Shown here: piece after piece, positions 12,784-44,436 of the stretch
How the letters are laid out: every line of letters begins with the position of its first letter
Position numbering within the stretch: the stretch's first letter is position 1
Origin: a virus
Virus record (IMG/VR): IMGVR_UViG_3300031857_000002
Location: 124,001 to 188,000 of that record
Length of the DNA: 64,000 nt
Direction: 5' to 3' (one strand)
Translations under genes and position numbers: made by a program
The notes under the pieces: model-generated
Told to the model about the DNA's origin: nothing
The model's database searches: none
The model's input: the letters and a program-made list of their open reading frames with translations, nothing else

Positions 12784-13962
12784 ATGCTTAAATCTAAAAC
12801 TTCTTGTGTGATGCCTTACATGGGTCTAGCAATTCAAAATGACGGAGACTTTTGTGCTTGTAATAGAAACAATTGGAGTTATACCAATCGACAACAAGAA
12901 GTTTTGTTTGCCAATAAAAACACACTAGAAGAAGCATGGGCAAGCCCCACTAGAAAAATGTTGGCTGCTGGATTGGATTATGGAAAATCAATACCAAGTT
13001 GCAGTCCATGCACTAACTTAGAAGCCAGTGGCAAAATCAGTGCAAGACAAACGTTCAATAACCAATTTGGTCATCTTGCTCCGTTGCCTACTCAACCACG
13101 TGTGTTGATCATGAAACCAGGCAATGTTTGTAATCTGTCCTGTAGGATGTGCAATCCAGCAACCAGCACCACATGGTATCAGGATGGGTATAAATTAGCA
13201 AAGGCACATGACAATTTTGTTGGCACTCAAAAAGAATACACTGCACAATTTGAAACTATACGTTCGGCATTCAATCAAGAAAATCCCATATGGGATACCA
13301 TGGAACAGTGGCTGCCCAGTTTGGAATTTTTTGACATCTACGGAGGAGAACCATTCCTAGCTCCTGGTTTGTTTAAAGCCCTAACAGCAGTGGCCAAAGC
13401 AGACAAAAGTTCAACAGTGAGCTTGCAATTGCATACCAATGGTACGATATGGAATCCTGATTACTTGAATACATTGTCCAAGTACAAACACGTAAGAATA
13501 GGCATCAGCATTGACAGTGATGTAACCAGTCAGCTTGAGTACATTCGTTATCCACTGGAAGCTGACGTTGTTTGGCAAAATCTCAGCAGGTACAAAGACT
13601 GGGCAAGCAATCATTCCAACATAGAACTTTATATTTGTGTTACCCTTACGCCTCTTAATATATTTTACTTTGATTCAATTGACAAAAATTTAAGCAGGCA
13701 TTCATTACCAGTTGGCCACAATATTGTTTATAGCCCAACCGAATACGATGTGCGACACATACCAGTATCAGTGAGAAAAATTATTGCTGAGAAATTAAAA
13801 CATTATCCCACCCTGGCAAACTTTTTAATGCAGACCATACCAGGATGCGATGTTGCTTGGCCTAAGTTTTGGAAAATTACAAAAGAATTAGACAACATAC
13901 GCAATCAATCATTTGAATCAACGTTTCCTGAGTTTTATGAATTGATCAAGATGTATGTATGA
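12784..13962 (+). CDS. Radical SAM protein with N-terminal Cys-rich region
   Basis: A 392-aa radical-SAM enzyme. The [4Fe-4S] motif is CNLSCRMC (Cys 116, 120, 123), the SAM-binding YGGEPF lies near residue 186, and Cys residues before the core (DFCACN at about 23-26 and CSPC at 73-76) could hold an auxiliary cluster as in SPASM/twitch proteins. Such enzymes often modify peptides or nucleotides by radical chemistry. No substrate peptide gene is recognised nearby. Plus strand among minus-strand genes, with TAAATA at 12774-12779 ending 4 nt from the ATG and no Shine-Dalgarno. Confidence 0.8.
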   Translation: MLKSKTSCVMPYMGLAIQNDGDFCACNRNNWSYTNRQQEVLFANKNTLEEAWASPTRKMLAAGLDYGKSIPSCSPCTNLEASGKISARQTFNNQFGHLAPLPTQPRVLIMKPGNVCNLSCRMCNPATSTTWYQDGYKLAKAHDNFVGTQKEYTAQFETIRSAFNQENPIWDTMEQWLPSLEFFDIYGGEPFLAPGLFKALTAVAKADKSSTVSLQLHTNGTIWNPDYLNTLSKYKHVRIGISIDSDVTSQLEYIRYPLEADVVWQNLSRYKDWASNHSNIELYICVTLTPLNIFYFDSIDKNLSRHSLPVGHNIVYSPTEYDVRHIPVSVRKIIAEKLKHYPTLANFLMQTIPGCDVAWPKFWKITKELDNIRNQSFESTFPEFYELIKMYV

Positions 13963-16986: not shown

Positions 16987-18171
16987 ATGTACACTATAAA
17001 TAGTCAATCTATGAACTTCCCAACCAACTACTGTGCATTGCCGTTTAGAGGCATGCAACTCGAATGTGATGGTGAGATTAAATCTTGCTGTCTGTACAAA
17101 CCACATCTTGATCAATCAATTACTCAATATCATATGACCAATTATGATCACTGGTGGAACAAATCTCTTGACCGAATACAAAATCATGTGATCAACAACA
17201 CCGTTGATCCTGGCTGCTCTTATTGTCTAGAGCCAACTATTCTTCCGCATCCTATGCGAACAGGCGCCAATGACTTTTTCAAACATGATCCACAATACAC
17301 ACCAGGTGACTCGCCTGAGTGGTTGGACATACGATTTGGCAACTTCTGCAATCTCAAATGTATGATGTGTACTCCTCTAAATAGTAGTCAAATTGAACTG
17401 GAATACAAAAACAATACCGCAGCCTACAATGCACAAGGAATTGCACACAGCAGTGGATGGAAACGATTCAGCATCGAAGACCAAGCGGCCAGCAAAGAAA
17501 ACTGGTGGGACAATTCTGAAACGTTTGCCAAGGTAGTCCAAATAGTAAATCGTGCTAGATATGTGAACTTCTCAGGAGGTGAACCTCTAATGATGCCACA
17601 ATTGTATGATCTCATGGATGCTATGAATCCCAACTGCATCATTACATTCAATACCAACTTGACCAGACTCACTGATCGCACTATGCAAGCATTGAAAAAA
17701 TTTAAAGATGTTAACTTGCAAGTCAGTTTAGACGGTGTTGGCGCACATCAAGAGTGGATACGTTGGAACAGCAACTGGCCTGAACTTGATCGCAACATTC
17801 AAACAGTTTGTAACACACCTAACATTAGAGTTACATTTAGTTATTTGTTACAACACACCACAATCTACACATGGCCAGCACTTTGGAAATATCTTGAACC
17901 ATTGAACTGTCAAATACTTGCAATGCCAGTGTACGCAGACACTATTGGCAAAGGTGTGTTAACACAACATTCGGCTGTGTCTACGGATGTTGAACGGTTT
18001 GTAGATTGGATCAAAGCCAACCCCAGTTCATGCAATCAAGAAATTGAACACTGGATTAGCAGTTATCAATTTGATCCTGTACTACACAAACAGTTTAGGG
18101 ACTATGTTGGTATGCTTGACAACATACGTGGTGGCAATTTCCGTGCCACGTTTGATCCTGCTTGGGACTAA
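16987..18171 (+). CDS. Radical SAM protein
   Basis: A 394-aa radical-SAM enzyme, second of three in the window. Core motif CNLKCMMC (Cys 121, 125, 128) follows DIRFGNF, and FSGGEPLM lies near residue 197. Upstream Cys pairs (SCC at about 33-35, GCSYC at 76-80) could bind a second cluster. Related in layout to the proteins at 12784 and 43258. Function unknown. TATAATA at 16973-16979 ends 7 nt before the ATG and no Shine-Dalgarno is seen. Converges with the next minus-strand gene, overlapping 4 bp. Confidence 0.8.
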   Translation: MYTINSQSMNFPTNYCALPFRGMQLECDGEIKSCCLYKPHLDQSITQYHMTNYDHWWNKSLDRIQNHVINNTVDPGCSYCLEPTILPHPMRTGANDFFKHDPQYTPGDSPEWLDIRFGNFCNLKCMMCTPLNSSQIELEYKNNTAAYNAQGIAHSSGWKRFSIEDQAASKENWWDNSETFAKVVQIVNRARYVNFSGGEPLMMPQLYDLMDAMNPNCIITFNTNLTRLTDRTMQALKKFKDVNLQVSLDGVGAHQEWIRWNSNWPELDRNIQTVCNTPNIRVTFSYLLQHTTIYTWPALWKYLEPLNCQILAMPVYADTIGKGVLTQHSAVSTDVERFVDWIKANPSSCNQEIEHWISSYQFDPVLHKQFRDYVGMLDNIRGGNFRATFDPAWD

Positions 18172-22357: not shown

Positions 22358-22490
22358 AATTTTCCTTTAAAATAAAAATGATCTATAAACTTAATTAGTG
22401 GTTTATACTAGTAGTATACATGAATTTTCTAACAAAACTTGTGCGTGTGCGCACATGATTGGTACGAAAGTTTGAAATTATTGCCAAAAG

Positions 22491-22512
22491 AAAACCCGCC
22501 GGAGCGGGTTTT
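22491..22512 (-). terminator. Rho-independent terminator of tmRNA
   Basis: 9-bp stem AAAACCCGC/GCGGGTTTT with a TCCG loop, followed on the minus strand by TCTTTT. It ends the tmRNA coding piece; the sequence is nearly symmetric and could work in both directions. Confidence 0.85.
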
Positions 22513-22694
22513 GGTGGTTTCTGTTACGAGGTATTTCCTACCCTAGGCTGCGTTTAGGCTGCCAAAGCGAACTGTTCGTCGTTTGCATTTACGGTTTTTG
22601 TGTCTTCGACCAGGTTACCCCAATCCTAACGGCTTCTACCTTGCCGGACTGTCCATGTTGTTACTCTTGACCCAATCGATCCTGTGTCAGGCCC
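22513..22694 (-). ncRNA. ssrA: tmRNA coding piece (permuted, two-piece ssrA)
   Basis: Starts GGGCCTGACACAGGATCGAT, matching the 5' end of tmRNA. The tag reading frame is at 22554-22586 and encodes ANDEQFALAA followed by TAA, close to the E. coli tag ANDENYALAA. The first 7 nt (22688-22694) pair with the acceptor piece at 22919-22925 including G3-U70. Instead of continuing to a tRNA-like 3' end it stops at a terminator, because the 3' half is encoded upstream. tmRNA with SmpB rescues stalled ribosomes and tags the nascent protein for proteolysis. The exact 3' end of the mature piece is not known. Confidence 0.9.
22554..22586 (-). other. tmRNA proteolysis-tag reading frame (ANDEQFALAA-stop)
   Basis: Ten codons GCA AAC GAC GAA CAG TTC and on to GCC, then TAA. 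The resume codon is GCA, preceded by GTAAAT. Ends in the ALAA degron read by ClpXP-type proteases. Confidence 0.9.
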
Positions 22695-22695
22695 A

Positions 22696-22905
22696 TCATA
22701 ACGATTTTCGTCCCCAATTAATAATGTTCCATACTCTTTCATGAATATAATACAATATTGTATTCACTATTAATTGTGTTATAGCAATAGGTCCTGCAAT
22801 TGATAAGTTACCTGAAATTAACAAGACTATGAGGAATGTTGCACCCGATCCTGTTAATCTCCAACTTATAGTTTTTACAATGCTTCTCAAATTGCTATCG
22901 TTCAT
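22696..22905 (-). CDS. DUF2061 membrane protein encoded in the tmRNA intervening segment
   Basis: A 69-aa DUF2061 protein: SIVKTISWRLTGSGATFLIV near the start and LYYIHERVWNIINWGR near the end, with two hydrophobic helices (about 20-34 and 37-52). It fills the 220-nt spacer between the two pieces of the permuted tmRNA: its AAGGA Shine-Dalgarno lies directly after the acceptor CCA, its start is 10 nt from the CCA, and its stop ends 1 nt before the mature 5' end of the coding piece. DUF2061 proteins have no firm function, though some neighbour sulfate-assimilation genes. Processing of tmRNA would cut out exactly this gene. Confidence 0.85.
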   Translation of the reverse strand: MNDSNLRSIVKTISWRLTGSGATFLIVLLISGNLSIAGPIAITQLIVNTILYYIHERVWNIINWGRKSL

Positions 22906-22914
22906 AAATCCTTA

Positions 22915-22979
22915 TGGTGGACCTGGCGGGCACTGCCCCCGCGTCTTGAATCCTTTTCTCTCTACTTCATACAGTCTTA
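22915..22979 (-). ncRNA. ssrA: tmRNA acceptor piece (permuted, two-piece ssrA)
   Basis: Ends CGCCAGGTCCACCA with encoded CCA. The T-arm is GCGGG-GGCAGTG-CCCGC, with the non-canonical GGCAGTG loop recalled from two-piece tmRNAs. CAGGTCC (22919-22925) pairs with the coding piece 5' end, leaving the G3-U70 pair required by alanyl-tRNA synthetase. GACTGT just inside the 5' part pairs with ACAGTC of the coding piece (helix P2), followed by ATG/CAT. The mature 5' end is a guess placed at the stop codon of the upstream gene. Confidence 0.88.
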
Positions 22980-23156
22980 AACTTGCTCCACTATCTGAAT
23001 ATCCAGTCTTAACGGCTGATCCCAGTTGACCCAGGGTATGGTGCCGGCTTCTCTGGCACTCTCAATATCATCCAATATTTCGGTGACATTGTAGCCAGGC
23101 CCAGGAATGTCTCGTTCCTGCCATAGTTGATTTTGCATTGAGATAGTGATTTTCAT
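22977..23156 (-). CDS. Small hypothetical protein (59 aa) ending at the tmRNA
   Basis: 59 codons, starting MKITISMQNQLWQERDIPGP and ending IQIVEQV; acidic and soluble. Its TAA (22977-22979) coincides with the first bases of the tmRNA acceptor piece (TTAAGACTG), so gene and RNA are transcribed together. A TAAATA box at 23162-23167 ends 5 nt before the ATG with no Shine-Dalgarno. Confidence 0.65.
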   Translation of the reverse strand: MKITISMQNQLWQERDIPGPGYNVTEILDDIESAREAGTIPWVNWDQPLRLDIQIVEQV

Positions 23157-25844: not shown

Positions 25845-26183
25845 TTAAACAACACCACGCACATCTGTGTTTAAATTGGGTTTGTGCTCACGGATCAATT
25901 CACGCTCTAATTTATGAGCGTCAGTTTTGCCGCGCACAACGTCCACAACCACCAAGTTAAATGTGTCAACACCACGCTCACGCATGCACTCATATAGTGC
26001 CCAGGATTTGTCTTCTGAACGTGAGCGATATACGTGTTTGTTAAAACGCACTTGAGCACTCTTGTTAACAGTGCTTTCAGTCTTGGCTGTGACACCAATG
26101 TAGAAGTCAGCACCACTTTGCAACATATAGATGATATGTGTACGATCGGTGCGCTTTTTACGTGATTGCTTTTTAAGTTCCAT
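25845..26183 (-). CDS. GIY-YIG nuclease-domain protein
   Basis: A 112-aa protein with IIYMLQSGADFYIGVTAKT (GIY-YIG variant), a conserved Arg in QVRFNKHV and a C-terminal RELIREHKPNLN element with the catalytic Glu. It could be a homing-type or repair endonuclease; no second DNA-binding domain is visible. The TATAAT of its promoter (26190-26218) ends 6 nt before the ATG, so the mRNA may have no leader. Confidence 0.75.
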   Translation of the reverse strand: MELKKQSRKKRTDRTHIIYMLQSGADFYIGVTAKTESTVNKSAQVRFNKHVYRSRSEDKSWALYECMRERGVDTFNLVVVDVVRGKTDAHKLERELIREHKPNLNTDVRGVV

Positions 26184-26189
26184 ACAAGT

Positions 26190-26218
26190 ATTATAGCAAA
26201 TCGGGCATTTCTGGTCAA
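26190..26218 (-). promoter_or_regulatory. sigma70-type promoter, TTGACC-17-TATAAT
   Basis: Minus-strand TTGACC 26213-26218 and TATAAT 26190-26195, spacer 17 bp ending TTTGC. Predicted +1 falls at or next to the ATG at 26183. Confidence 0.8.
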
Positions 26219-26310
26219 CCAAAATAATGTGGCAAAAAAGCCACAAAAATACGGTAATACTTGAGTATTACCCGGATAATCCAATAATATTATCGATAAT
26301 CCCTGATAAT

Positions 26311-43257: not shown

Positions 43258-44436
43258 TCATGTTTGTCTATGGGTGTATATGTCCGAAAACACTGTGCGA
43301 CTATCCAGATGCCTGCGTTGGTCAAGTTCTGCCAGTCGATTAAACAGACTGTGATACCCGTTGTCTACTACAGGCACATCCAAACAGTCTAGAACAAACT
43401 GTAGTTCTTGATCAAATCTAGTACCTGTGGGTTTTCTGGCAGCAATAATCTCTTTGACTTCTGCAATGTACGAAGCTGGCAGTGCCCTGGCATCACACCA
43501 GATAAACTGATGCCCGTTGTTGATATAGGCAAGATTTAGATGATCGTAATCACGTGCATGGCCGTTGTCTAGCAAGAAATCAACATAGTTCCAAATGGTC
43601 TTGGCATTGAGTGCAGAGAACACCATGTTGAATTTGACCTTGTGTGTTACAGGGATTGTGGACTTGAGTATGTCTAAGTTTTCAGCAAATACTGACCAAT
43701 CGCCTGGATAGCGAATATAATTGTATCTGTCGCCCATGTCTTCGGCACTAACCAACCAATCTACATTGGGAAACTTGGTCAGTAGCTCAAAGATTCTATT
43801 GCCGCGAATCATGCTGAGATTGGTGTTTACAATAAGATGACAATGTGGATTAATCTCAAGTAACTTTTCTAATATCACTTGATTTTCTTTGATCAACAGT
43901 GGCTCACCTCCGGCCATGTAGATCTTGCGCAGATCGGCTGCATTGTCCACAAAGTACTGCGTGACATCTGCAATAGCACTTTCGTCAATTTTGACAAACT
44001 GCTTTAGTTCGCTGGCCCAGGTTGAACTTAGATCAGGACCGCAATAAACACAGCCATAGTTACAAGTATTTCTAAATCTCAAGTCAGCATACTGTAGTTT
44101 AAAGTTTTTGGGTTGATCAAAAAATGCTTTGTCTGGTTGCCATGTATCAAACTCAACCAATTGATTGTCTCTATGATACTTACGACCTTCGTCAACGTTG
44201 TCTCCGGGTGCATAACAAACCTTACAGCCTTGAGCTCGTTGGCCAGACAGCATCTCTTGTTTGATCTGAATATTCTTGTTGCCGCCTACAATATTTTGTA
44301 GTTTGGTCTCGTGCAAATTACCAAGATTGTTATGAGCAATACAACAACTGTCTACCCTGCCGTCAGTTTCTACATAGATACTGCCCCAAGGTAGTGGGCA
44401 AAATGCATCATTGTTCCAGTATTGCTCTTGGTTCAA
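43258..44436 (-). CDS. Radical SAM protein with N-terminal Cys motif
   Basis: A 392-aa radical-SAM enzyme. The N-terminal region FCPLPWGSIYVETDGRVDSCC and GCKVCY is a SPASM/twitch-like Cys region. Core motif CNYGCVYC (Cys 125, 129, 132), MAGGEPLL near residue 175. Third of its type here and directly downstream of DpdA and the 44433 gene, which makes a role in deazaguanine maturation possible. Confidence 0.8.
   Translation of the reverse strand: MNQEQYWNNDAFCPLPWGSIYVETDGRVDSCCIAHNNLGNLHETKLQNIVGGNKNIQIKQEMLSGQRAQGCKVCYAPGDNVDEGRKYHRDNQLVEFDTWQPDKAFFDQPKNFKLQYADLRFRNTCNYGCVYCGPDLSSTWASELKQFVKIDESAIADVTQYFVDNAADLRKIYMAGGEPLLIKENQVILEKLLEINPHCHLIVNTNLSMIRGNRIFELLTKFPNVDWLVSAEDMGDRYNYIRYPGDWSVFAENLDILKSTIPVTHKVKFNMVFSALNAKTIWNYVDFLLDNGHARDYDHLNLAYINNGHQFIWCDARALPASYIAEVKEIIAARKPTGTRFDQELQFVLDCLDVPVVDNGYHSLFNRLAELDQRRHLDSRTVFSDIYTHRQT

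Follow-up and report, generated by a model that had tools for sequence, protein, structure and literature searches.

The excised spacer of circularly permuted, two-piece tmRNAs in phages very probably provides a slot in which one small protein gene can be exchanged for another, with the message read first and the tmRNA matured after it. Comparison of sequences supports both tmRNA pieces, the gene between them, a class of such loci, exchange of the gene as a cassette, a conserved helix at the spacer ends, and purifying selection. The locus that was analyzed lies on the minus strand of a 64,000-nt stretch of viral DNA (the window), and its features are as follows.

22491..22512, minus strand: terminator-like palindrome (AAAACCCGC TCCG GCGGGTTTT, then CTTTT) 3' of the coding piece, from sequence
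22515..22694, minus strand: tmRNA coding (5') piece, from RF04321 and RF01849; 193/193 identical in locus L075 across window 22509-22701
22554..22586, minus strand: tag reading frame ANDEQFALAA plus TAA, from ARAGORN and sequence
22695..22707, minus strand: 3' arm of the spacer end helix (AAATCGTTA, 22707-22699, codons of the last residues) plus TGAT (22698-22695), from covariation and the minimum free energy (MFE) fold
22695..22914, minus strand: intervening segment (IVS), 220 nt, between CCA and G1 of the coding piece
22696..22905, minus strand: DUF2061 gene, 69 aa, ATG to TGA, from Pfam PF09834 and dN/dS; sole copy in the record
22909..22914, minus strand: TAAGGA, immediately 3' of CCA; Shine-Dalgarno-like, and doubling as the 5' arm of the IVS end helix, from covariation and the MFE fold
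22915..22976, minus strand: tmRNA acceptor (3') piece, from RF04321 and ARAGORN; L075 and L243 match it exactly, as they do over the 60 nt upstream
22977..23156, minus strand: 59-aa open reading frame (ORF) of unknown function, its stop codon directly adjoining the start of the acceptor piece

A circularly permuted tmRNA on the minus strand

The Rfam covariance model for permuted tmRNA (RF04321, tmRNA_permuted) matched over its full length (model positions 1-213) at 22976-22554 on the minus strand, with a score of 104 bits against a gathering threshold of 47 (E=3.2e-20). The alpha_tmRNA model RF01849 also matched at 23028-22510 (64.3 bits), and ARAGORN called a permuted tmRNA at 22463-23007 with an identical tag. 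The permuted tmRNA was assigned the extent 22976-22515, of which the 3' end of the coding piece (~22515) is approximate. Both the sequence and the covariance-model alignment placed the acceptor piece first and the coding piece second. A first-pass annotation made from the sequence alone had proposed this order, with a 3' half bearing the T-loop GGCAGTG and ending in CCA ahead of the 5' half, and the proposal was borne out by RF04321, ARAGORN and the sequence; the absence of a covariance hit to both halves, which would have refuted it, was not what the search returned. The annotation had run the acceptor piece from 22979 to 22915. The end was retained, but the start was corrected to 22976, as positions 22979-22977 are the stop codon of the upstream ORF.

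The acceptor piece begins with one strand of P2 (GACTGT, 22976-22971), followed by GAC and the T arm GCGGG-GGCAGTG-CCCGC, and closes with CAGGTCC-A-CCA, the encoded ACCA finishing at 22915. The first bases of the coding piece (GGGCCTG, from 22694) pair with CAGGTCC at 7/7 positions, G3-U70 included, and P2 (GACTGT/ACAGTC) joins the two pieces in the covariance-model alignment, with the same bases in L003 and L075. The 7-bp acceptor stem and the P2 pairing claimed earlier were thus found in both sequence and alignment. The tag codons (GCA AAC GAC GAA CAG TTC GCT TTG GCA GCC TAA) fulfill the criterion for permuted-tmRNA tags, an alanine resume codon and an -LAA end. Similar tags occur in Burkholderiales permuted tmRNAs (for L557, ANDERFALAA), which offers only a weak hint of the host.

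The 320-kb virus record contains a phage-type DNA polymerase, and 26 tRNAs are found in the window alone. No SmpB was found in the record, which may be incomplete, and the tmRNA would therefore depend on host SmpB. No T4-type late promoter (TATAAATA) was found within 1.4 kb of the tmRNA gene. The upstream 59-aa ORF had no Pfam or PHROG match and probably shares a transcript with the tmRNA; the sequence of this region, upstream of the acceptor piece, is conserved in L075 and L243. Elsewhere, the window encodes three radical SAM proteins, two of them with SPASM domains (12784-13962, 16987-18171 and 43258-44436), and, ~3 kb upstream of the tmRNA (25845-26246, minus strand), a protein with a GIY-YIG domain that may be a free-standing homing endonuclease.

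The intervening segment encodes a DUF2061 protein

The IVS would be missing from the mature RNA if processing follows that of known permuted tmRNAs. The ORF within it matched PF09834 over the complete profile (1-52/52) with 72.6 bits (gathering threshold 23.1, E=3.5e-20), and no second DUF2061 gene is present in the 320-kb record. The product is a membrane protein. Only 3 nt separate AAGGA from the ATG, compared with ~6 nt in most other members of the class described below, and the TGA stop (22698-22696) is followed by a single T before G1 of the coding piece (22694).

The same layout, with DUF2061 inside a permuted tmRNA, was found on an independent contig (L003). Substitutions between the window and L003 numbered 10, 7 and 33 at codon positions 1, 2 and 3, with dN/dS of ~0.10, indicating that the spacer ORF evolves as a protein; judged from this comparison, the gene is under purifying selection. 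The first-pass annotation had described a DUF2061 gene that fills the spacer exactly, from a Shine-Dalgarno sequence right after the CCA to a stop 1 nt before the coding piece, and Pfam, the sequence, the selection estimate and L003 all confirmed that description. It had also suggested a search for DUF2061 between tmRNA halves. This search yielded one further case, L003, among the 54 viral relatives found, and a further pattern scan for DUF2061 inside tmRNA gave no case beyond L003.

The ends of the intervening segment form a conserved helix

The tetranucleotide TGAT was found at the IVS end in 112 of 123 unique IVSs; in the window its TGA is the DUF2061 stop codon, opposite ACCA. When the first ten IVS bases were aligned with the bases before TGAT in 99 unique end pairs, 93.5% were paired, and several pair types occurred at many positions. 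Pairing fell to 48% when the register was slid by one base and reached no more than 73% when the 3' arms were randomly redealt (2000 shuffles). Relatedness among the loci inflates these counts, yet the slid register, in which relatedness is unchanged, collapses. AAGGA lies in the 5' arm of gene-bearing IVSs and TCTTTA or a similar sequence in the 3' arm, so that the Shine-Dalgarno sequence pairs with the codons preceding the stop.

The window precursor was predicted to fold (MFE -121.9 kcal/mol, z -3.1) such that the acceptor stem, a contact between ACCA and UGAU (A73-U, C75-G and A76-U) and the IVS helix make one near-continuous stem. The window end helix contains a G-G mismatch, which together with the 3-nt Shine-Dalgarno gap may make both translation and sequestration weaker than in other members. 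Because the end helix occurs also in gene-less IVSs, it did not arise to regulate the gene. Plausibly UGAU is structural in gene-less IVSs as well, and that its UGA was co-opted as a stop codon is an inference.

Protein genes in other viral intervening segments

Viral loci were gathered by three patterns (the junction TGAT-GGG; a T arm followed by CCA, a Shine-Dalgarno sequence and ATG; and the T arm), and both tmRNA pieces were placed in them by pairing rules. Uncultured viral contigs gave 139 unique IVSs, and in 43 of them a Shine-Dalgarno sequence was present together with an ORF of 20 aa or longer that terminates no more than 20 nt before the coding piece. The stop codon lay 1 nt before the coding piece in 28 of these and 12-13 nt before it in 12. 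The window's locus meets the class criterion: its IVS opens with a Shine-Dalgarno sequence, albeit at short spacing from the ATG, and its ORF stops just short of the coding piece. The spacer gene, for which the first-pass annotation knew of no parallel, is hence not a one-off but belongs to a class with many different cargo genes.

The sample of 139 was enriched by the search pattern that contains a Shine-Dalgarno sequence; in the sample from the TGAT-GGG junction pattern, which is blind to it, 11 of 68 clusters qualified. For IVS clusters of at least 80 nt, a Shine-Dalgarno sequence with an ATG-initiated ORF whose end lies no more than 15 nt from the coding piece was present in 26 of 72, compared with a mean of 1.7 and a maximum of 6 after shuffling of the IVS interiors (500 shuffles). 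The corresponding values for clusters of at least 110 nt were 17 of 37 observed and a shuffle mean of 0.39 (maximum 2). The frame of the terminal TGA was open in 9 of 20 IVSs of at least 150 nt that end in TGAT, and the other two frames in 0 of 20 and 1 of 20. These shuffles and frame counts indicate that the spacer genes are not explained by chance. All gene-bearing cases came from uncultured viral contigs; within the sample, genes in the spacer thus characterize uncultured phages. Many viral IVSs lack any gene, from which it follows that the tmRNA does not need cargo.

ARAGORN called no tmRNA in L645 or L653, though both match the layout, and detection tools may thus overlook such tmRNAs. 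In L634, L643 and L650 the tags called by ARAGORN were unusually long (28-30 aa), which probably reflects a wrong resume codon, although the tags are possibly real. Across viral permuted tmRNAs the type of T-loop varied together with a D-loop-like segment of the coding piece (GGCAGTG with ACACAGGATCGA, TGCGAAT with ACCTAGATTCGA and TTCGATT with ACCTGGTTTCGA); this joint change could be covariation of a contact or could reflect lineage. The gene-less IVS of L080 (~469-544 of the locus) looks like a degraded tRNA, with a T arm (AAGGTTCGAATCCTT) and ends that pair, but the resemblance is by eye only, and neither ARAGORN nor Rfam calls a tRNA there.

Cargo is diverse and has been exchanged

Cargo ranged from 23-aa single-helix peptides to proteins of ~120 aa, most of which had no family match in Pfam or PHROG. 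Assignment of the L200 and L173 cargo to RNA 2'-phosphotransferase rested on weak matches only (E ~0.04) and is not claimed, and an apparent likeness of the L224 cargo to GNAT was unsupported.

Exchange of cargo was evident in L075. The tmRNA of this locus is identical to that of the window on the coding side (193/193) and on the acceptor side with its upstream sequence (88/88), and the flanks are 87-94% identical across ~12 kb. Its IVS, by contrast, encodes a 72-aa protein unrelated to DUF2061. On this alignment, the difference between the two loci is a cassette swap in which cargo was exchanged between identical tmRNA halves. A third ORF occupies the IVS of L243, which has the same upstream sequence as the window and L075.

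A family of 35-aa proteins was found at 19 loci, of which 11 are in the IVSs of tmRNAs with several different T loops, 2 are directly upstream of a tmRNA and 6 are elsewhere. Mean dN (0.18) and dS (1.17), estimated from the sequences, place this family under purifying selection. In L642 and L646 (~1501-1615) the 35-aa gene is immediately 5' of the acceptor piece; these upstream genes are a possible step toward or away from the IVS slot. The 24-aa peptides sit in an IVS at 5/5 loci found, and closely related tmRNAs occur both with and without cargo.

Some spacer ORFs cross the predicted RNase P site

In nine IVSs (L072, L243, L223, L228, L281, L227, L280, L172 and L646), an ORF with a Shine-Dalgarno sequence and ATG continued past the predicted site of RNase P cleavage and remained open in the coding piece. 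Named groups among them are L072/L646, L243/L281 and the Cys-rich pair L223/L228. These ORFs stop inside the coding piece, and the tail of the protein is encoded by tmRNA sequence. An ORF open across the predicted cut could be completed only on the uncut precursor, and cutting would leave its message without a stop codon. No other sequence evidence hints as strongly as the crossing ORFs that a single molecule is both translated and processed.

Bacteria, cultured phages and known systems

RF04321 scored above threshold in 174 of 190 Alphaproteobacteria and in 62 of 151 genomes of a Burkholderiales family, with mostly short spans, and alphaproteobacterial IVSs measured 5-71 nt (45 loci). No spacer gene was found among ~240 bacterial permuted tmRNAs surveyed, whose spacers were mostly short. 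The longest bacterial IVSs found (115, 165 and 232 nt) had a repetitive or non-coding look and no gene-like ORF on reading; the 232-nt IVS, in a permuted tmRNA of an alphaproteobacterial genome (L588, G128), is an imperfect repeat. A strict form of the gene-bearing pattern, with AAGGA only, gave 0 hits in 84,980 species genomes.

DNA searches of cultured phages with the window tmRNA gave nothing comparable. Permuted tmRNAs are present in the cultured phages XacN1, FBPa45, X1, BUCT628 and PHB04 without an evident spacer gene; spacers of cultured-phage permuted tmRNAs span 26-126 nt. Three cargo proteins searched against cultured phages had no match. In XacN1 (L593) and the cultured-phage loci L594 and L595, ARAGORN called permuted tmRNAs where public records have no tmRNA feature.

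The window shares with bacterial permuted tmRNAs (Alphaproteobacteria, Betaproteobacteria and Cyanobacteria; RF04321, RF01849, RF01850 and RF01851) the piece order, T arm, CCA, G3-U70 stem, P2 and tag frame. A short IVS-end helix is also present in bacteria, for example in Rhizobium (AAAACCGG...CCGGCTTTTGAT). The bacterial IVS, however, is short and gene-less, whereas that of the window is 220 nt long with a complete conserved protein gene. Permuted tmRNAs in virulent aquatic phages, like that of the window, have been described in the Methylophilales phage Melnitz and the Pelagibacter phage Mosig; the available part of that account (PMC9004378) describes a riboswitch and no protein gene in the spacer.

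The 2025 tmRNA database holds 97,179 sequences, of which 11,946 are permuted, and its main text reports a tRNA gene in one IVS and a repeat in another, as well as nuclease genes within group I introns of tmRNA (PMC11915505). The first of these, a tRNA-Ala gene nested in the permuted-tmRNA IVS of GCA-2688965, resembles the window in that a gene is nested, as far as the main text describes it. It is, however, a single tRNA in a nominally archaeal MAG, whereas the class described here comprises protein genes of many families in phages, with gene ends fitted to the processing helix. A group I intron tmRNA with a LAGLIDADG gene, from the same main text, likewise has a protein gene inside a tmRNA gene, but there a self-splicing intron with a homing nuclease interrupts the T loop, and the T arm of the window is uninterrupted. 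An Rfam scan of 6 kb around the window tmRNA gene found no group I intron, and the searches that were run matched no cargo protein to a nuclease family. The database main text, its supplements excluded, was not found to mention protein genes within a permuted IVS. The earlier remark that no protein gene filling the spacer was known held up to that extent, no description having been found in that main text or in the available part of PMC9004378; older literature on permuted tmRNA was not covered. The likeness to arfA is one of function only, in that the message is targeted by tmRNA on account of its end. arfA stands as a gene of its own, whereas in the window the message and the tmRNA would share one precursor, which has not been demonstrated.

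Proposed mechanism and alternative explanations

Under the favored model, a single transcript would contain, in order, the acceptor piece, the protein gene, the coding piece and the terminator. The Shine-Dalgarno sequence would emerge just after CCA, before the 3' arm exists, so that ribosomes could translate the gene while the precursor was still nascent or unprocessed. Once the 3' end of the spacer and the coding piece had been made and the end of the gene was free of ribosomes, the spacer ends would pair and the acceptor stem close. The closed end helix would hide the Shine-Dalgarno sequence and expose the RNase P site (22695/22694), and cuts there and at CCA would release the two tmRNA pieces to act with host SmpB. 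Each precursor molecule would thus give the message first and the tmRNA later. According to reviews, tmRNA ends are processed by RNase P and tRNase Z, or by RNase III or E plus exonucleases (PMC3985003, PMC3968760). Were RNase P to act first, followed by exonuclease trimming to CCA, the message would be destroyed; were an endonuclease to act first, a mini-mRNA would be released that ends one base past its stop. By either route both products would derive from one RNA. Single-unit transcription, RNase P cutting, translation, mutual exclusion and trans-translation activity are inferences only, in the absence of RNA or protein data. The competition between processing and translation anticipated by the first-pass annotation is likewise an inference without transcript data, with support from the pairing of the Shine-Dalgarno sequence with the last codons and from the ORFs that cross the predicted cut.

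A serious possibility, somewhat short of an even chance, is that small genes simply landed in a length-tolerant IVS in tightly packed genomes and are co-transcribed with the tmRNA without mutual influence, an endonuclease cut after CCA and RNase P freeing an intact mini-mRNA that is freely translated. The diversity and swappability of the cargo, close tmRNA relatives with and without it, the end helix of gene-less IVSs, and the upstream 59-aa ORF, which likewise adjoins the tmRNA, all favor this explanation. It does not account for a Shine-Dalgarno sequence kept in the pairing 5' arm with the last codons in the 3' arm, nor for the nine ORFs completable only on uncut precursor, and a message released by RNase P would finish 1 nt past its stop codon. 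That the stop codon precedes the cut by 1 nt in 28 unique cases, and is lost on cutting in the nine crossing ORFs, would instead suit a feedback like that of ArfA, in which RNase P leaves a spacer message ending at or before its stop, the product is tagged for destruction by its own tmRNA, and the cargo protein builds up only if tmRNA maturation or trans-translation fails. A precedent is arfA itself, whose mRNA lacks a stop codon and is controlled by trans-translation, as far as the available part of PMC10107115 goes. This feedback is nevertheless unlikely, as the stop codon survives cutting in most cases, release factors can in principle work at a stop near an mRNA end, and the cargo has no common function that would replace ribosome rescue. 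Similarly doubtful is the wider proposition that phage permuted tmRNA precursors are dual RNAs, in which the RNase P cut truncates the message at or before its stop so that cargo is made only from uncut precursor and is otherwise tagged by the same tmRNA.

That the tmRNA is a decaying relic beside the only gene that matters, or conversely that the ORF is noise in a working tmRNA, is very improbable. Phage tmRNAs could be dispensable, DS6A being an example of phages with only the tRNA-like domain of tmRNA (PMC4131195). Against a relic stand an intact, conserved tag frame, G3-U70, P2, T arm and end helix, and against noise the dN/dS of ~0.10; conservation of both tmRNA and ORF largely refutes the two alternatives. 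The window record is an uncultured metagenomic contig, and an assembly artifact or a chance ORF beside a tmRNA had to be considered for that reason, but the independent contigs L003 and L075 have the same layout and the shuffle and frame tests also speak against it, leaving this explanation with next to no support.

The preferred reading, a message translated from the spacer before the tmRNA matures, suggests that the making of an RNA and the making of a protein are physically linked. The spacer of permuted tmRNAs would thereby gain a possible function, and the processing of a split precursor and its interference by ribosomes become testable with one reporter construct. Identical RNA halves with swapped cargo are natural cassette-exchange experiments, and the small phage proteins thus revealed, being encoded inside an RNA gene, may escape gene callers. 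A new regulatory circuit is possible and has not been shown; if the dual-RNA proposition were true, the state of trans-translation would set the level of a swappable phage protein in a self-referring circuit.
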